Shown: positions 29,232 through 57,819 of the stretch, in pieces
Position numbering within the stretch: the first letter of the stretch is position 1
Layout: each line of letters starts with the position of its first letter
Source: Candidatus Krumholzibacteriota bacterium
GTDB lineage: Bacteria > Krumholzibacteriota > Krumholzibacteriia > LZORAL124-64-63
Direction: 5' to 3'
DNA length: 64,000 bases
Assembly (NCBI GenBank): GCA_022711765.1
Contig: JAKLEB010000001.1
Coordinates: forward strand, 1,222,694-1,286,693
The notes under the pieces: generated by a model
The model's database searches: none
Seen by the model: the letters and a program-made list of their open reading frames with translations, nothing else
What the model was told of the DNA's origin: nothing
Made by a program: the position numbers and the translations under genes

Positions 29232-29684
29232 CTATCGATAGAGGCTCTTGACACTACTCCACGTCGTGGATTCCGTCGGGACCACGGCGCAGAAGAAGTC
29301 GACCGCGGTGGTCAACTCGGATTCCTCGATCGCGCTGCCGAACGGCGCCGCCGTATGGAAGGTGACGTCGACGTGATACTGGCCCGGAGGCGCCGTCACG
29401 GTCCACTCGCCGTAGAACTGGAATCGCTGGGTGGGGTAGGTGTCCTGGGCCCGCGTCAGGGATCCCGCCCAATCGATGACCTCGAGGGGATTGCCGCGAT
29501 CGTCCGAGAGGACCACGGTGTAGTCGAGGTCGAGCTGGAACACCGCCGCGCGGAACCGGACGATGATCTCGGCCGACCAGCCGAGACAATCGGCGGAGGC
29601 GTCGAGATCCGTCAACCTGGTCGCGGACGCGGCCGCCGGAAGCAGGAGCGACGCGAGCAGGGCCGCAAGGAGCATCTTCTTCAT
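29232..29684 (-). CDS. Small secreted protein of unknown function with C-terminal WxxVKxL motif
   Basis: The 150-residue protein has a signal peptide (MKKMLLAALLASLLLPAAASA) and then about 125 residues that look all-beta, with two widely spaced cysteines (DCLGW and FFCAV). I do not recognise the family. Its last residues, PTESTTWSSVKSLYR, share the pattern PxExx(T/S)W(T/S)xVKxL(F/Y)x at the very C-terminus with the two unrelated secreted proteins at 50968 and 53628. It has its own promoter and terminator and lies in an AT-rich islet. Confidence 0.75.
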   Translation of the reverse strand: MKKMLLAALLASLLLPAAASATRLTDLDASADCLGWSAEIIVRFRAAVFQLDLDYTVVLSDDRGNPLEVIDWAGSLTRAQDTYPTQRFQFYGEWTVTAPPGQYHVDVTFHTAAPFGSAIEESELTTAVDFFCAVVPTESTTWSSVKSLYR

Positions 29685-49584: not shown

Positions 49585-50975
49585 TGACGAAGACCCTCGA
49601 CAAGGCTGCCCTCGTCGTGATCGGCGGCGGGCCCGGCGGCTACGCGGCGGCGTTCAAGGCCGCCGACCTCGGCCTCGACGTCACGCTCGTCGACCCGGCC
49701 GAGAACCCGGGCGGCGTCTGCCTGTATCGCGGCTGCATCCCGAGCAAGGCGCTCCTGCACGCGGCGAAGCTGGTCCGCGAGACCGAGGAGGCCGGAGCGA
49801 TGGGGCTCGCCTTCGCGCCGCCCGCGATCGACGTCGACAGGCTGCGCAGCTGGAAGGACGGCATCGTCGCCCAGCTCACCGGCGGCCTCGGCGGCAAGGT
49901 CAAGCAGAAGAAGATCCGGCACGTGCGAGGTCACGCGCGCTTCACGGGGCCGCGCGAGCTCGCGATCGAGCTCGTCGAGGGCGGTCAGGCGACGCTGGCC
50001 TTCGACCAGGCCATCCTCGCGAGCGGCTCGCGGCCGGCGCTGCCGCCGTTCGCGGGCGAGCTGAGCGAGCGCATCCTCGACAGCACCGGCGCCCTCGCGC
50101 TGGGTTCGGTGCCCGGATCGCTGCTCGTGATCGGCGGCGGCTACATCGGGCTCGAGCTGGGGTCGGTCTACGCGGCGCTCGGCTCGCGCGTCACCGTGAT
50201 CGAGATGCTGCCGCAGCTGATGACCGGCGCCGACCGCGACCTCGTCTCCCAGCTCAAGCGCCGCCTCGACGCGCAGTTCGAGACGATCCTCACGAGCACG
50301 AAGGTCCTGGCGCTCAAGGAGCAGAAGAACGGCGTCAAGGTCACCTTCGCGGACAAGAAGGGCGAGGAGACCAGCAAGCTCTTCGAGCAGGTGCTCGTCG
50401 CGGTGGGCCGGCGGCCCAACGTCGAGAACCTCGGGCTCGAGGCGGCCGGGGTCGCGCTCGAAGGCGGGTTCGTGAAGGTGGACGCCTTGCGCCGCACCAC
50501 GGCGGACGGGATCCTCGCGATCGGCGACGTCACGGGTCAACCCATGCTGGCACACAAGGCGACGCACGAGGGCCACGTGGCGGCCGCGGTCGCCGCGGGC
50601 AAGCCGGCGGCGTTCGAGCCGCGCGGCATCCCCGCCGTATGCTTCACCGATCCGGAGATCGCCTGGGTCGGCCTCACGGAGACCGAGGCCAAGGAAGAGA
50701 AGCGCGCGGTCAAGACGGCGAAGATCCCCTGGCGGAGCATCGGCCGCACGCTCACGCTCGGGCGCGACGACGGACTCACGAAGATCATCATCGACCCCGA
50801 GAACGACCGCGTGCTCGGCGTGGGCCTCGCCGGCCCCGGCGCGGGCGAGCTGATCGCCGAGGCGGCGCTCGCGATCGAGATGGCGGCGCGGTGGCAGGAC
50901 CTCGCGCTGACGATCCACCCGCATCCGACCCTGTCGGAGTCGATCATGGAGGCGGCGGAGACGTTCTTCAGTTAA
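49584..50975 (+). CDS. lpd: Dihydrolipoamide dehydrogenase (E3) of the second complex
   Basis: The 463-residue flavoprotein has GGGPGGYAAA, redox Cys46/Cys51 in GGVCLYRGCIPSK, GGGYIGLELG, AIGDVTGQPMLAHKAT and HPHPTLSES. It differs clearly from LpdA at 41118, so the two E3 enzymes are not a recent copy of each other. It ends the aceE operon; its last 8 nt overlap the end of the convergent gene at 50968. Confidence 0.95.
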   Translation: MTKTLDKAALVVIGGGPGGYAAAFKAADLGLDVTLVDPAENPGGVCLYRGCIPSKALLHAAKLVRETEEAGAMGLAFAPPAIDVDRLRSWKDGIVAQLTGGLGGKVKQKKIRHVRGHARFTGPRELAIELVEGGQATLAFDQAILASGSRPALPPFAGELSERILDSTGALALGSVPGSLLVIGGGYIGLELGSVYAALGSRVTVIEMLPQLMTGADRDLVSQLKRRLDAQFETILTSTKVLALKEQKNGVKVTFADKKGEETSKLFEQVLVAVGRRPNVENLGLEAAGVALEGGFVKVDALRRTTADGILAIGDVTGQPMLAHKATHEGHVAAAVAAGKPAAFEPRGIPAVCFTDPEIAWVGLTETEAKEEKRAVKTAKIPWRSIGRTLTLGRDDGLTKIIIDPENDRVLGVGLAGPGAGELIAEAALAIEMAARWQDLALTIHPHPTLSESIMEAAETFFS

Positions 50976-51987
50976 AGAGCCGCTTGACCGCGGTCCAGCT
51001 GTGGGGCTCGACCGGGGTCGTGAGGTTCAGGAAGAGCACGTAGTCGTATTCGTAGGTGGCGCCGTCCCAGAAGGTCTGGGAGCCGACCCAGATCCACACC
51101 AGCGAGCCAGGCCCACTCCAGGTGATGGACATCGTCGTCGGGCTGCATGGTAAAGTACTCACCACCTGGATTACGCCCAAACCGCAGTATTGAGGGCCAA
51201 TCTCGACGATGTACGAGCGTTCCTCGGCGTCTCCCGTGATTTCGAGTTCGCCGCTCTCCGGGATGATGACGTGGAACCAGTCTGTGTCGCGCGAACTCTG
51301 GCCGCTGGCGTTCAGGTAGTACCCTGACTTGCCGCAGAAGATCGGGCTCGTGATGTCCTGGAAGGGGTAATCAGGCGGCGTATTGCACCCACCGTTCCAG
51401 TGGTCGACGTAACCATCGACGATCGGCGGCTCCCCCTCCAGCGCGGCGCCAGCAGGGCACTCGAGGACGCAGGGAACGAACTCCTCGACGTAGCCTGTGT
51501 AGATGCCGTGGTCGCCTCCCCACCCGTCGATGACCAGGAAGTACTGCACGCCGCCGAAGACCGGGACGTTCTCGAGCCGCGACGTGTAATCGCCGTAGTA
51601 GAAATCGTCGTTGCAGGCGACCAGCGCGAGGTCCGAGTCGTAGATGTAGATCTTGGTGTCGAGCTCGGAACCGAACGTGTCGACAGTGATCCCGAAGTCG
51701 TCGTCGGGCGTGAACGTGTAGACGACGTCCGGCGACGTCGAGCCGGCGTACGGGCAGACCTCGTCGTAGTCGTTCGTGTAGCCCGTGGTCGTCCCGTCGA
51801 ATGTTGCCGGGATCGTGACCGCGACCGCGTCCGCGATGGTGTCGCCGCCCTGGCGCAGAACGTCACGATCGGGCGATGGCGGCGTATTCGGCACGGCCGG
51901 CTTGGCGGGACGCGTGACGCCGAGATCGTGGGCCGCAAGCGGCCAGGCGAGCGCGAGCAGGACCAGGTACAGCGCAGCGGCGCGCAT
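50968..51987 (-). CDS. Secreted PPC-like domain protein, paralog 1
   Basis: The 339-residue exported protein has a signal peptide (to about residue 20), a linker beginning HDLGVTRP, a PPC-like beta domain (about 45-135, with PDVVYTFTPDDDFGITVD and TKIYIYDSDLALVACNDDF), a second Cys-containing beta module and the C-terminal tail EPHSWTAVKRLFN. It is a close paralog of the gene at 53628. PPC domains accompany secreted enzymes, but no enzyme is attached here. The ATG has GAGGAG upstream. Confidence 0.8.
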   Translation of the reverse strand: MRAAALYLVLLALAWPLAAHDLGVTRPAKPAVPNTPPSPDRDVLRQGGDTIADAVAVTIPATFDGTTTGYTNDYDEVCPYAGSTSPDVVYTFTPDDDFGITVDTFGSELDTKIYIYDSDLALVACNDDFYYGDYTSRLENVPVFGGVQYFLVIDGWGGDHGIYTGYVEEFVPCVLECPAGAALEGEPPIVDGYVDHWNGGCNTPPDYPFQDITSPIFCGKSGYYLNASGQSSRDTDWFHVIIPESGELEITGDAEERSYIVEIGPQYCGLGVIQVVSTLPCSPTTMSITWSGPGSLVWIWVGSQTFWDGATYEYDYVLFLNLTTPVEPHSWTAVKRLFN

Positions 51988-52243: not shown

Positions 52244-53479
52244 CTAGCTCCGATCGTGACCCCCGCGCCGGCCGCGCCTTTCATGATCCTCGCGGTCCGC
52301 AGGCTCGCCCTGCTCGCCGCGTGTCCGCAGCCTCGGCGCCTTCTCGTGCGTGAACCGGTGGCAGCGCGAGCAGAGCGTCACCAGGTTGTCCGGCGCGTTG
52401 GTCCCGCCGCGATCGCGCGGCACCCGATGATGCACCTCGAGGAAGCGCGTCGCGCCGCAGCCCGGGGTCGTGCAGCGGTGGCCGTCGCGCGCGAGCACCT
52501 GCGCGCGCGTCGCTGGGGGAATCGACGAGCGGTTGGGCTTGACGCCATCGTGAACCCTGGCGTCGCAGGCCAGCGCCTCGGCCTGTGCCGTGGACAGGAC
52601 CTTCTCCCCCGCGCTGGTGATGACCGCGGACCGCCCGCAATCGGGGCAGCGGCGCACGATGATCTGAATACCCGGCAATGACTTACGAGAGTTGCGCCGG
52701 CGCAACTCGGGCTCCGCGGCGGACCTCGGAGCACTGGCCTCGGCAGCAGATCCGGCAGCCTCGATACCGGTCGCGTCATCGGCATCATCATCGACATCGG
52801 CAGCGCCCTCGACCAGCGTCGCGAGGCCGGCGAGCAGGATGTCCTCGCGGGTCGCGTCGCTCGGTACGAGGCGGAGCTTGCGCACGCGCTCGACGAGTCC
52901 CTCGAAGCGCGCGCGCTGCGGGCCGTCGAGACGCAACGTGAGGGTGGTCGGCGGGTCGGCCACGGCCGGCGCACCGGCGGGAGCCGGTGTCGCGTCCGGA
53001 CCCGTCTCGCCGCAAGCAAGCCCGAGCGACGGAGCCGCATTCGCGTCTCGTCGGCGCCTGGCCGCGGCCCGCGCCTGGCGGACCCGGACCTCGAGCTCGC
53101 GGCGGCCGACCTTGCTCGCGGTCGCGATCCAGCGCGTCTCGCTCGCCGACGTCGCCACCCGGGCGACCTGCTGCGCCTTGGTCCAGCCGAGCTCGCCCCG
53201 GACGACGGCCGCGCGCAAGCGCGGCAGACGCTCGAAACCGTCCGCGAGGCGCGCGAACTGGAAGTAGCGGTTGCGCGAGAAGCCCAGACCCTGGGTCGCG
53301 TAGAGCTCGAGGCTCGCGAACCCGAGATCCCGGAACAGAGAGCGGCGGGCGACCTCGGCGAACCACAGGACCGCGCATTCCTGCGCACGGTCGGTCGCCG
53401 CGATGGCCTGGCGGAGGGAGGCGTCGACCTTTGCCGCGGCGAGGCCGGGCGTGAAGGACGGGTAGTCGATGGCGGCCAT
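52244..53479 (-). CDS. HNH endonuclease-domain protein (DUF222-like)
   Basis: The 411-residue protein has a helical N-terminal part (about residues 1-150, DUF222-like, with LGFSRNRYFQFARL) and a C-terminal HNH domain: two CxxC zinc pairs (TPGC, CSRC), VHHRVPRDRGGTNAPDN and CHRFTHE. HNH proteins nick or cut DNA. A Lys/Arg-rich tail follows. It sits between the two nearly matching secreted paralogs, on the same strand. No mobile element is visible around it, so it could be a resident gene or the trace of an insertion. Confidence 0.85.
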   Translation of the reverse strand: MAAIDYPSFTPGLAAAKVDASLRQAIAATDRAQECAVLWFAEVARRSLFRDLGFASLELYATQGLGFSRNRYFQFARLADGFERLPRLRAAVVRGELGWTKAQQVARVATSASETRWIATASKVGRRELEVRVRQARAAARRRRDANAAPSLGLACGETGPDATPAPAGAPAVADPPTTLTLRLDGPQRARFEGLVERVRKLRLVPSDATREDILLAGLATLVEGAADVDDDADDATGIEAAGSAAEASAPRSAAEPELRRRNSRKSLPGIQIIVRRCPDCGRSAVITSAGEKVLSTAQAEALACDARVHDGVKPNRSSIPPATRAQVLARDGHRCTTPGCGATRFLEVHHRVPRDRGGTNAPDNLVTLCSRCHRFTHEKAPRLRTRGEQGEPADREDHERRGRRGGHDRS

Positions 53480-53627: not shown

Positions 53628-54638
53628 CTAATCGAAGAGCCGCTTGACGCTGGTCCAGGTCTGGCGCTCGACCGGGACGGGCAGGTTCAGCCAGAGGACG
53701 TAGTCGTACTCGTAGGTGGCGCCGTCCCAGAAGTGCTGCGGGCCGACCCAGTACCAGATGAGCGAACCGGGAGTGCCGGTGATGGTCATCGTGGCCTGGG
53801 TGCAGGGTCCGATCAGCACGTTCTCGTATACCCCCATGTTGCAGTTCAGCGGAAGTTCGAACGTATACGAAGCCTCCTCCGCATCGCCCGTGATCTCGAG
53901 CACGCCGCCCTCGGGGATGAGGATGTGGAACCAGTCCGTGTCGCGAGAGAAGCCGCCGCTGGCGCTCAGGTAATAGCCCGACTTGCCGCAGAAGACCGGG
54001 CTCGTAATGTCCTGGAAGGGGTAATCCGGCGACGTGTTGCAGCCGCCGTTCCAGTGGTCGACGTAGCCATCGACGATGGGCGGCTCCCCCTCCAGAGCGG
54101 CGCCGGCCGGGCACTCGAGGATGCACGGCACGAAGATCTCGATGTAGCCCGTGTACGTGCCAGCCTCGCCGCCGTACCCGTCGATGACGAGGTAGTACTG
54201 CACGCCGCCTGCGACCGCGACGTTTTCGAGCCGCGACGTGTAATCGTCGTAGAAGTCGTCGTTGCAGGCGACCAGCGCGAGGTCTGAATCATAGATGTAG
54301 ATCTTGGTGTCGAGCTCTGAACCGAACATGTCGACCGTGATCCCGAAGTCTTCGTCGGGCGTGAAGGTGTAGACGACGTCCGGCGACGTCGAGCCGCTGT
54401 AGGGACAGACCTCGTCGTAGTCGTTGGTGTAGCCCACGGTCGTGCCATCGAAGGTGGCGGAGATCTCGATCGCGACGGCGTCCGCGATCGTGTCGCCGCC
54501 CTGGCGCAGGATATCGGGGTCGGGCGGCGGCGGCGTGAACCGCGCCGCGGGCTTGTCCGGACGCGTGGCGCCCAGATCATGCCCCGCGACCGCCGACGCG
54601 AGGGCGAGCATCGCCAGGATCACCGTGACGTCGCGCAT
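53628..54638 (-). CDS. Secreted PPC-like domain protein, paralog 2
   Basis: The 336-residue protein has the same architecture as the gene at 50968: signal peptide, HDLGATRP linker, PPC-like domain, Cys-containing module and the tail ERQTWTSVKRLFD. Over the 83 residues from GGDTIADAVA to the VACNDDF end I count 7 differences from paralog 1. Tandem duplication is the simplest origin. The ATG has GAGGGGG upstream. Confidence 0.8.
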   Translation of the reverse strand: MRDVTVILAMLALASAVAGHDLGATRPDKPAARFTPPPPDPDILRQGGDTIADAVAIEISATFDGTTVGYTNDYDEVCPYSGSTSPDVVYTFTPDEDFGITVDMFGSELDTKIYIYDSDLALVACNDDFYDDYTSRLENVAVAGGVQYYLVIDGYGGEAGTYTGYIEIFVPCILECPAGAALEGEPPIVDGYVDHWNGGCNTSPDYPFQDITSPVFCGKSGYYLSASGGFSRDTDWFHILIPEGGVLEITGDAEEASYTFELPLNCNMGVYENVLIGPCTQATMTITGTPGSLIWYWVGPQHFWDGATYEYDYVLWLNLPVPVERQTWTSVKRLFD

Positions 54639-54957: not shown

Positions 54958-57819
54958 CTATTGCACGATCACCATCTTCTTCGTCTCCACGAATCCGCTA
55001 CCCGTCAGCTTGTAGAAGTACAGGCCCGAACTCACCCGGCGGCCGCTGTCGTCGCGGCCCTCCCAGGTGCGGGAGTAGCGGCCCGCCGGCAGGCTGCCCT
55101 GCGCGAGCGTGCGGATCTTGCGGCCGCTGACGTCGAAGATCGCCAGGGTCACCGTGCCCGCGTCGGCCGGTACGTCGAACGCGATCGTAGTGGCAGGGTT
55201 GAACGGATTCGGCGCGTTCTGCGCGAGCGCGAAGCGCGTCGGCGCCAGCGCGTCGGGCGCGCCGGTCACGTCGAGGTCGCAGTCGAAGTCCGCGATGTCG
55301 TAGAGGGCCCAGTAGTTCAGGCTGCCCGTGCCGTTGGCGCCGCCGTCCCGGATCCGTAGCGTCCAGTCGCCGTCCAGCGGCTCGCCGATGAAGCGGTCGA
55401 ACGACTGGCCCGGGGTGAGCGTGAGCGGGTAGTTGCCGATGATGTTGTCGGCCGACCCGCCCGAGAACAGGTGCAGGTAGGCGAGCGTACCCGACGGCGA
55501 GACCAGGATCAGCACGAGGTCGCCGATGTACGTATGCGTGACGTTGATGTCCATGTTGAGGCCCGCGGACACCGTCGCGCCCGTGCCGGCGATGGTGATG
55601 ACGCTGTAGATCGTGGTCCCGTCGTTATCGGGCAGCGGGACGTAGGGCGTCTGGATGCCGTACCCGCCGACCGGCACGCCGGTGAAGAGCTGCAGGTGAC
55701 GGTTCACGACCGCCGGCGAACCGCCGGCCGTGTAGCTCACCTGCAGGTTGAAGGTGATCAGGGTGCCGCACGGGACGTCCGCCGCCACCGAGAACTCGTA
55801 GTCGACGTTGCCGGTCGCCACGCCGCTCACCGGCAGGTCGGCGAACGTCGCCGAGTTCTGCGTGACCGTGACGCCGTCGATCGCGGTCGAGAGGACGGCG
55901 CTCACGTTGGTCGCGCCGGCGAGGCCGCTGTTGCTGAGCGTGACGCTGACGTCGACCGACTCGTTCGGGTCGGCGGCGCCGTTGCCCGACGGCTCGGCCG
56001 TGATCGTGAAGGCGTCGACGCCGATCGCCGGCAAGGGCGCGAGGATGATGTTGTGGACGAGGAACTTCTGGACGAGCACCTCGGCGTGCGGCCCCGACGG
56101 CTGCAGCTCCTGCGCGGTGGCGATGATGACGTTCGCGAGGTCGCGCATCTTCAGGCCGCTGCCCAGGCCGAACTGCGATTCGAGCATGATCTGGTCGACC
56201 GATTCGCGCGTCTGGCCGTGCGTCTCGACGAGCGTCCGCAGCGACTGGTAGATCGGCGTGCTCCACAGCTCGTCCGACCAGTAGCCGCCGGGGATCTGCT
56301 GGTGGGCCTGGTAGTAGGTCGAATGGACGTACTGCGCGCCGGTGGCGTTCAGGATGCGGCCGGCCCAGCACTGGTTGCCCGAGCCGTGGCCGTCCCAGCT
56401 GTAGATCCAGTCCGGGCGATACAGCGGACCGTTCGGTGTGGAGTAGCTGTACGAGGCGCCCCAGTAGTCGCCGAAGCCCTCGCCCATGGCGCCGGTGTCG
56501 CCGCCGGACCAGCTGTTGTTGATGTCGTGGTTGATGGCATGACCGTACTCGTGCAGGATCACGTCGGCGTCCTCGTTGTCGTCGACGCAGCCGTGGCCGA
56601 AGGTGAGCCGGTTGGTGCCGGGATAGTAGGCCGAGTTGTCGGCGCCGCCGAAACCGTCGGTGTCGGCGCCGATCGAACCGTACTGGATGCCCGTCGCGCC
56701 GACGAAGCCCAGCGACTGCATGTAGCGCTGGTTCTGGTCGAGCTGGAAGTAGGTCATCGCGTCGTTGAACGAGTTGTTGCCGCGCAGGCGGACCCAGTTG
56801 CCGTCCGGCGTGGTGCTCGGCGGGGTGGCCGGCGAATCCCAGTCGAGGATGTTGACCCAGGGACCGTTCAGGCGATAGACCGTTCCGTCGAATGCGATGT
56901 CGAGCAGGGTCCGTGTGTAGTAGGCGGCCGTGAAGGCGGACGCCGGCGACCCGTCCTGCAGGCTGTCGAGGCGCAAGGTCGTGCGCGGATCGGGATCGAA
57001 GACGACGCCGCTGCCGGTGGCGCGGCTCGCGGGAGATGCGAGGTCGCCGGCGCGCTCTAGCTCGCGCGCGGCCACGGCGGCGAAGGCAGCCGGCCTGTAG
57101 GCGAGGGGACCCTGGTGCTCGGCGATGCGCTCGGCGAGCGGCCGGTCCGTCTCGTCCGTCTTGAAGCGGACCACGCGGGTATCGGCGAGCTCCACGACCT
57201 GGCCCGTCTGGGCGTCGACGCGCACCTGCCAGGCGCCGTCCGGGCCGTCGAGGTCCAGGTCCACGAGCCAGTTCAGGCGGAACGCAGCTCCCTCGGGCGT
57301 GTACACGAGGCGGGCGCGCGGCGCCGACCGCAGCTCTCCGTACGCGCGGACGTGGCGCCAGGCCACGTCGTAGGCCGCCTCCTGGTCGAGGGTCGGCTGC
57401 GCCAGGGCCGCGTCCTCGTCGGCCACCGGGTACGTGTTGTTGAAGGCCCGCAGGACTCGCCCGTCGCGCTTGGCGATCGAGACGATGGCCTCGGCCTTGT
57501 CGACCGGGATGCCGCCCAGCATCTGCTGGAACCGGACATGGCGGGCGAGGAGGCTCTCGCGTTCGCCCGCGAGGGTCAGGTTCGCGAGGTCGGCGGGCAG
57601 ACCGAAATCGGCCGCGCGCGCCTCGAGGAACGCGCGCGCGGTGCCCTCGGTGGTCGTGCCGAGAATCGCCGGCCATTCGGGGTCGACCACGATCTTGAAC
57701 GTGGTCCGGTGATCCTGGTGCCGGGTGTCCAGCGGGACGTCGACCGCGAGCGCGGCGCCCGCGCCGGCGGCGAGCGCGAAGAGCGCGGCGCAGAGAACGG
57801 CGGTAATGAGGCGATTCAT
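54958..57819 (-). CDS. Secreted M4/fungalysin-type metalloprotease with P domain and sorting-like C-terminus
   Basis: The 953-residue protease has a signal peptide, a propeptide with FTP-like and PepSY-like regions (about 30-250), and a catalytic domain with zinc motif HEYGH (423-427) and a third ligand Glu in GEGFGDYWG. After a CARDB-like domain it has a proprotein-convertase P domain (NMDINVTHTYIGDLVLIL, GEPLDGDWTLRIRDGG) and a FlgD/T9SS-type tail starting ALAQNAPNPFNP and ending VETKKMVIVQ. It should digest protein outside the cell. AAGGAGA precedes the ATG. Confidence 0.92.
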   Translation of the reverse strand: MNRLITAVLCAALFALAAGAGAALAVDVPLDTRHQDHRTTFKIVVDPEWPAILGTTTEGTARAFLEARAADFGLPADLANLTLAGERESLLARHVRFQQMLGGIPVDKAEAIVSIAKRDGRVLRAFNNTYPVADEDAALAQPTLDQEAAYDVAWRHVRAYGELRSAPRARLVYTPEGAAFRLNWLVDLDLDGPDGAWQVRVDAQTGQVVELADTRVVRFKTDETDRPLAERIAEHQGPLAYRPAAFAAVAARELERAGDLASPASRATGSGVVFDPDPRTTLRLDSLQDGSPASAFTAAYYTRTLLDIAFDGTVYRLNGPWVNILDWDSPATPPSTTPDGNWVRLRGNNSFNDAMTYFQLDQNQRYMQSLGFVGATGIQYGSIGADTDGFGGADNSAYYPGTNRLTFGHGCVDDNEDADVILHEYGHAINHDINNSWSGGDTGAMGEGFGDYWGASYSYSTPNGPLYRPDWIYSWDGHGSGNQCWAGRILNATGAQYVHSTYYQAHQQIPGGYWSDELWSTPIYQSLRTLVETHGQTRESVDQIMLESQFGLGSGLKMRDLANVIIATAQELQPSGPHAEVLVQKFLVHNIILAPLPAIGVDAFTITAEPSGNGAADPNESVDVSVTLSNSGLAGATNVSAVLSTAIDGVTVTQNSATFADLPVSGVATGNVDYEFSVAADVPCGTLITFNLQVSYTAGGSPAVVNRHLQLFTGVPVGGYGIQTPYVPLPDNDGTTIYSVITIAGTGATVSAGLNMDINVTHTYIGDLVLILVSPSGTLAYLHLFSGGSADNIIGNYPLTLTPGQSFDRFIGEPLDGDWTLRIRDGGANGTGSLNYWALYDIADFDCDLDVTGAPDALAPTRFALAQNAPNPFNPATTIAFDVPADAGTVTLAIFDVSGRKIRTLAQGSLPAGRYSRTWEGRDDSGRRVSSGLYFYKLTGSGFVETKKMVIVQ

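Follow-up and report, generated by a model that had tools for sequence, protein, structure and literature searches.

A short C-terminal tag, with the consensus [PV]-[VT]-E-x-x-[ST]-W-[GST]-x-[VIL]-K-x-[LMI]-[FY]-[R/D/N/E/K]-COOH over the final 10-15 residues, ends many small signal-peptide proteins of Krumholzibacteriota and of two further bacterial groups. The tag is real and linked to export, conclusions that we hold with hardly any reservation, and it is probably a sorting or targeting signal. Read as a whole, the sequence evidence somewhat favours a post-Sec sorting signal that would act as a miniature alternative to the C-terminal domain of the T9SS, with a PorV/PorP-like protein as its likely receptor. 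The tag has no Pfam or NCBIfam model and looks to be undescribed; we found no description of it in the open-licence literature, a body of text that takes in few of the subscription journals.

The window, the whole stretch of 64,000 nucleotides analysed here, lies at G000:C1:1222694-1286693 in a genome of 3.96 Mb and four contigs. Three of its proteins terminate in [ST]-W-x-x-V-K-x-L-[FY]-x-stop in translation (Table 1), and the gap-free common C-terminus that the first-pass annotation had described on three exported proteins indeed ends each of them. The pattern W..[VIL]K.{1,2}[LIMFY] matches five times in the six-frame translation of the window, with a stop codon one residue on in only the three tagged proteins. 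The smallest of these was said to be otherwise unrelated to the other two, and it does fall in a separate BLAST cluster: it has a paralogue in the same genome (L015, same cluster) and no significant Pfam or NCBIfam family in a profile search, and the two PPC-like proteins cluster with 15 others of the genome. The label PPC-like is borne out by two modelled beta-rich domains and by Foldseek matches of the 336-aa model to tandem collagen-binding domains (5iku) and a PPC domain (5sv5). The ends of the two PPC-like frames stand as first listed; the listed starts probably do not, as an ATG codon inside each longer frame is the likelier start. Between these paralogous genes, a 411-aa frame (52244-53479, minus strand), which we take to be DUF222/HNH-like, carries an HNH endonuclease motif (RDGHRC...HHRVPRDRGG...LCSRCH). 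The large proteases of the window had been described as ending in a FlgD/T9SS-type domain, and the tail of the one included in Table 1 matches that pattern.

Table 1. Tagged proteins of the window, their tags and an untagged protein for contrast.
Feature	Positions	Strand	Remarks
C-terminal tag PTESTTWSSVKSLYR of small exported protein	29235..29279	-	exactly its final 15 codons; stop codon 29232-29234
Small exported protein, tagged, 150 aa	29232..29684	-	signal-peptide-like start MKKMLLAALLASLLLPAAASA
C-terminal tag PVEPHSWTAVKRLFN of 339-aa PPC-like protein	50971..51015	-	
Exported PPC-like protein, tagged, 339 aa	50968..51987	-	probable start ATG at 51987
C-terminal tag PVERQTWTSVKRLFD of 336-aa PPC-like protein	53631..53675	-	modelled helix 328-335 behind linker
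Exported PPC-like protein, tagged, 336 aa	53628..54638	-	probable start ATG at 54638; two beta-rich domains
Large protease-like protein, untagged (contrast)	54958..57819	-	tail fits FlgD/T9SS pattern

Across the source genome, the strict pattern W-x-x-V-K-x-L-[FY]-x-stop matches 38 times, against one match for the reversed pattern. Omitting the stop codon raises the count to 42, and three of the four extra matches are tags with 5-8 residues past the motif; because removing this requirement adds just four matches, the motif hardly occurs away from C-termini. A relaxed pattern, which allows any xTx codon in place of V and L/I/M/F in place of L, gives 59 matches against 4 for its control. When these 59 were read in context, 49 had at most one residue past the motif and 57 at most eight. 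Signal-peptide-like starts are present in frame in 53 of the 57 C-terminal copies. The four without one are L005 (frame cut by the locus end), L006 (a 56-residue frame), L191 and L234 (frame at the start of contig C2), and a signal-peptide-like GTG start is visible when L005 is seen as the longer L190 frame. Both motif copies that are not C-terminal lack such a start. Signal peptides were called by a permissive home-made heuristic in which alternative start codons are allowed. It is positive for 67 of 166 background genes shorter than 500 aa (40%; genes from the window and from 16 spaced stretches of 20 kb), and even so the link of tag to export is strong (53/57 versus 67/166, Fisher p = 3.6e-13; p = 6.7e-14 without the six tagged genes that the background holds). 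The enrichment of W-x-x-V-K-x-L among signal-peptide proteins that the first-pass annotation had proposed to look for is therefore found, and the tag is neither missing from other exported proteins nor equally present in cytosolic ones. A chance origin is ruled out by the near-zero reversed-pattern controls.

Tagged proteins of the source genome are diverse, the 53 of them forming 29 BLAST families. That the two largest families hold 17 and 6 members is what could be said for the tag being the final helix of one domain family spread by gene duplication, or else a coincidence. The number of families, the reversed-pattern controls and the synonymous codons of the tag copies (V is GTC in 30 and GTG in 16; L is CTG in 36, CTC in 11 and TTG in 2) weigh against this explanation, which we consider extremely improbable; common ancestry for the tag as a whole is refuted by family and codon diversity together. 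Small tagged proteins also occur in local runs, with at least three tags close together on one strand (G099:C68:2831-5147, L165, L146, L161, G108:C79 and G108:C180), as if they expand locally. In a set of 144 tagged proteins drawn from 157 candidates, 21 Pfam families are matched and most members match none; the bodies recognized include beta-helix (4), CHRD (3), LTD (2) and PPC (2) proteins and a single cupredoxin, DUF642, cohesin, GEVED and others. NCBIfam matches in this set include the choice-of-anchor C, J and R families, which are bodies already known with differing anchors. No FlgD or Por-secretion tail model of Pfam or NCBIfam matched any of the 144, and the type A (PF18962/TIGR04183) and type B (PF13585/TIGR04131) T9SS models are absent from the families matched. 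Ten 25-residue tails scanned alone at E values up to 10 found no relevant Pfam or NCBIfam model and one irrelevant weak Pfam match.

In anatomy the carriers appear to be Sec-exported, non-lipidated and mostly small. A signal-peptide-like start is present in 168 of the 196 proteins first collected, and 18 of the other 28 lie in open-ended frames. Among 146 non-redundant tagged proteins taken from the 168, the median length is 235 residues, one has a lipobox cysteine, so that the set does not read as lipoproteins, and one has a transmembrane-like stretch (19 residues with KD >1.6 within the last 50 residues). This last count bears on the idea that a membrane transpeptidase cuts or exchanges the tag, as in the pairs LPXTG/sortase, PEP-CTERM/exosortase, GlyGly-CTERM/rhombosortase and MYXO-CTERM/myxosortase. 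The logic is the same in that a signal peptide and a short conserved C-terminus recur on dozens of unrelated proteins, and for MYXO-CTERM a passage in PMC11980579 describes a phylum-wide distribution. Each of those signals, however, consists of a motif, a transmembrane helix and a basic end; here the defining helix is lacking in all but 1 of 146, the motif itself ends the protein and no model of that kind matched the tails. Anatomy thus disfavours a sortase- or exosortase-type transmembrane tag, and we judge processing of this sort very improbable.

The composition of the tag suggests how it may be read. In 27 non-redundant proteins of the source genome, V occurs at position -16 (frequency 0.74), E at -13 (0.81), T/S at -10 (0.96), W at -9, T/S/G at -8, V at -6, K at -5, L at -3 and F at -2 (0.89), and the last residue is R, D, N or E; in 119 non-redundant proteins from other genomes, G dominates at -8 (0.92), Y at -2 (0.92) and R at -1 (0.93). 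Because the search patterns fixed W, V, K and L (elsewhere also T/S, G, Y and R), the invariance of these residues is no independent evidence; such evidence comes from homologues beyond the patterns, which retain recognizable tails such as WGSLKSQYR, WGAIKAQYR, WGAMKAMFR and FGGVKALYR. Judging by the spacing of its residues, the tag may form an amphipathic helix in which T/S is the N-cap and one face bears W, V, L and F/Y. AlphaFold places a helix past a linker in the 336-aa window protein (residues 328-335, pLDDT about 67) and at residues 236-244 in an Eisenbacteria family, where the body scores about 90 and residues 234-245 fall below 50. In these models the tail seemingly lies outside the protein fold, and it looks like something that another molecule reads. 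A protease of the Tsp/Prc or DegP type could be that reader, making the tag a turnover or quality-control tail or else a protective cap, and the position of the motif at or near the extreme C-terminus in 57 of 59 copies suits this proposal. Such recognition of a free hydrophobic C-terminus sits poorly with a terminal residue that can be R, D, N or E in the source genome and with the 2-8 residues that follow the motif in some copies, and it leaves the exchange of the tag for a T9SS domain, described below, unexplained; we rate it quite improbable.

Some tagged proteins have homologues with a FlgD/T9SS tail. Tagged bodies, from which signal peptide and tag had been removed, were compared with the collected frames, and four homologous pairs were aligned directly; rows against L191 were disregarded, as its match to the FlgD regular expression is not a real tail. 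In the source genome, the beta-helix protein L018 (tag TWTNVKDLFR) shares 36% identity over 132 columns with G000:C1:1866890-1867573, and the alignment stops 13 residues before the end of L018, beyond which the partner continues into FlgD_ig; at 228 aa the partner is short, perhaps a fragment. Adjacent cohesin-like genes of L045 encode proteins of 32% identity, one ending in SWSRVKALYK and the other in FlgD_ig (the two adjoining exported proteins lie at L045:1504-2932, minus strand). Adjacent LTD genes of L070 share 40% over 187 columns, an alignment that takes in the signal peptide, and the longer protein has extra domains followed by FlgD_ig/TIGR04183. Finally, the tagged beta-helix protein of L142 shares 37% over 259 columns with L173, a C10-peptidase protein with FlgD_ig/TIGR04183. 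Homologous bodies that carry either the tag or a FlgD/T9SS type A domain present the pattern expected of exchangeable sorting modules, and because related proteins bear either the tag or a known secretion domain, the tag looks like an address label for the surface or the outside. The two kinds of carrier differ in size, with a median of 239 aa for tagged proteins of the source genome (n=53) and 882 aa for FlgD-tailed proteins (n=19) (p = 1.5e-9; FlgD tails were found by regular expression and L185 was dropped as a false positive).

The tag is spread throughout one phylum and recurs in others; taxon names here are the record titles of metagenome bins. The relaxed tag is present in 79 of 80 Krumholzibacteriota genomes and gives 999 matches, compared with 13 when the pattern is reversed. 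The sole genome without it is G006, of the same class (family f3, 95% complete), in which SprA is nevertheless present. Lineage loss in families f5 and f6 was considered and rejected: they are near tag-free by the strict pattern, but the relaxed pattern reveals that they use variants with I or M, among them WGAIKSMYR. When one genome per species was scanned for the strict form S/T-WG-x-VK-x-LY-R, at least 114 stretches matched; by title, the matches listed comprise 45 Ca. Eisenbacteria, 19 Krumholzibacteriia or Krumholzibacteriota, 32 'bacterium' and 18 others (Gemmatimonadota-, Latescibacterota- and Coatesbacteria-labelled and single odd ones), with no Bacteroidota title among them. Twenty-nine genomes chosen for having a scan match hold 1-67 relaxed matches each (580 versus 0 in the control), with up to 67 tagged copies per genome in Ca. 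Eisenbacteria. In the Coatesbacteria group the tag is sparse (9 of 14 genomes, 24 matches versus 0), and nine of these matches were read, six with a signal-peptide-like start and three in frames that are open-ended. Planctomycetota other than G088 are at background (78 genomes, 12 matches versus 27 in the control). G088 itself has three tagged genes on one 3.5-kb contig (L091, JADZDL010000390.1, SJ778) with up to 76% identity to Eisenbacteria genes of L165, and given this likeness we rejected it as a genuine tag carrier, the contig being probably bin contamination. A Thermoplasmata match (L139) lies in a frame of 19 residues and was set aside as chance.

Parts of a T9SS are found in the same genomes. 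The SprA_N profile scores over its cut-off in 67 of the 80 genomes of the phylum and in 0 of 14 control genomes. The misses were rejected as evidence that the tag is independent of the T9SS, since 12 of the 13 match a 1,497-residue piece of the SprA of the source genome (G078 weakly) and the thirteenth, G011, is 61% complete. The same query also matches G080 (Ca. Eisenbacteria) and G105, as well as G097 and G198 (Coatesbacteria group) at about 30% identity, and finds no match in G088. Barrels of the PorV/PorQ family number 9-17 per genome in all ten genomes tested, and a PorU-type sortase is present in all ten, over the cut-off in eight. The PorU of the source genome, which scores 393 bits where the cut-off is 420, adjoins a PorV-family gene and has a FlgD-like tail; this pair (L241, G000:C1:372500-379500) and the SprA gene elsewhere (G000:C1:553508-557998) are examples of T9SS parts outside Bacteroidota. 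A T9SS-like system accompanies the tag in Krumholzibacteriota, Eisenbacteria and Coatesbacteria, which is co-occurrence and not proof of use. SprA without the tag in G006 counts against a link, and because no Bacteroidota title is among the matches listed, although the T9SS was defined there, the T9SS alone needs no tag. Gene neighbourhoods are uniform in what they lack: the ORFs of 143 tag loci include no conserved untagged neighbour save FlgD-tailed proteins and no recurrent porP/sprF-like gene, and the co-occurring processing enzyme that the first-pass annotation had hoped to see is not conserved near tagged genes. In the source genome, one tag is separated from a PorV-family match by about 2.5 kb, which is about chance level.

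Comparison with T9SS signals helps to frame what the tag may do. Like the tag, type A domains (PF18962, TIGR04183; FlgD_ig PF13860-like here) are C-terminal on Sec-exported proteins, and they occur on homologues in the same genomes; the Sec signal peptides typical of type A substrates are present on tagged proteins, and SprA, PorV and PorU genes are present in the genomes. A type A domain, however, is about 100 residues long with an Ig-like beta fold, whereas the tag is 10-15 residues long and modelled as a helix, and the two have no recognizable common sequence or fold. Passages in PMC10202324 report that the last 13 residues, with conserved lysines, are needed and that the last 22 residues of HBP35 are enough for export of GFP, so that a very short T9SS signal is not absurd. 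According to the relevant passages of PMC12618676, PorV takes charge of type A domains in Bacteroidota, and PorP/SprF shuttles of type B domains, which span 150-235 residues and are usually encoded next to a shuttle gene. Type B (PF13585) offers, as described there, the model of a second signal class with its own barrel shuttle for the route that the tag might take (PMC12618676), with the difference that type B substrates adjoin the shuttle gene and tagged genes have no conserved neighbour in 143 loci.

The early reading of the motif as a short C-terminal sorting or anchoring tag gains support from the link to export and from the replacement of the FlgD/T9SS domain on homologous bodies. Going by the anatomy of the carriers, Sec export and signal-peptide cleavage would come first. 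The tail would then be recognized, either in the periplasm or once it has reached the outer membrane, forming a short amphipathic helix on meeting a receptor that takes the protein to the outer membrane or through it, for placement at or beyond the surface. Among candidates for this receptor, a PorV/PorP-like barrel shuttle, of which there are 9-17, would be likeliest, acting together with the SprA translocon. Cargo is split by size, small proteins carrying the tag and large ones the FlgD-type domain. That the tag uses T9SS parts at all is a question on which we lean slightly to the negative side of even, its apparent ties to SprA, PorV and PorU amounting to co-occurrence and module swapping. 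More specifically, and a shade more tentatively, a 10-residue helical tail in Krumholzibacteriota, Eisenbacteria and Coatesbacteria might lead proteins to a T9SS-related translocon through a PorV-like shuttle of its own, in parallel with the FlgD/type A domain.

The main rival to export by this route is a non-covalent anchor or assembly tag that is independent of the T9SS and acts after export by another route, the helix docking into a surface lattice, a matrix or a peptidoglycan or outer-membrane receptor. Short terminal amphipathic helices are known to dock cargo to a partner in encapsulins and bacterial microcompartments; those cargoes are cytosolic, whereas tagged proteins are exported. 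A helix modelled as free beside a stable body, the lack of a transmembrane segment and cargo typical of surface and matrix proteins and of choice-of-anchor families would all fit an anchor. The exchange with the FlgD/T9SS domain instead suggests that tag and domain do the same job, in Bacteroidota primarily one of translocation, and the neighbours of tagged genes in the 143 loci include no lattice protein. We regard the anchor as unlikely, at perhaps a one-in-several chance.

Several bacterial surface systems were discovered through C-terminal tags, and this one, carried by up to 67 proteins per genome in phyla that have hardly been studied by experiment, would allow annotators to group otherwise obscure proteins as a coherent set. 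The SprA, PorU and PorV homologues described here imply a range of the T9SS wider than that given in a 2016 survey, which in the section concerned restricts it to Bacteroidetes (PMC4793230). Exchange of the tag for a T9SS domain also means that the questions of signal recognition and route left by the relevant part of PMC10202324 become testable with a 10-residue peptide. Should the tag have its own shuttle, a peptide signal of this kind would have been overlooked for want of a cultured model known to employ it; the minimal T9SS address would then be a peptide, and the tag a further kind of outer-membrane export signal.
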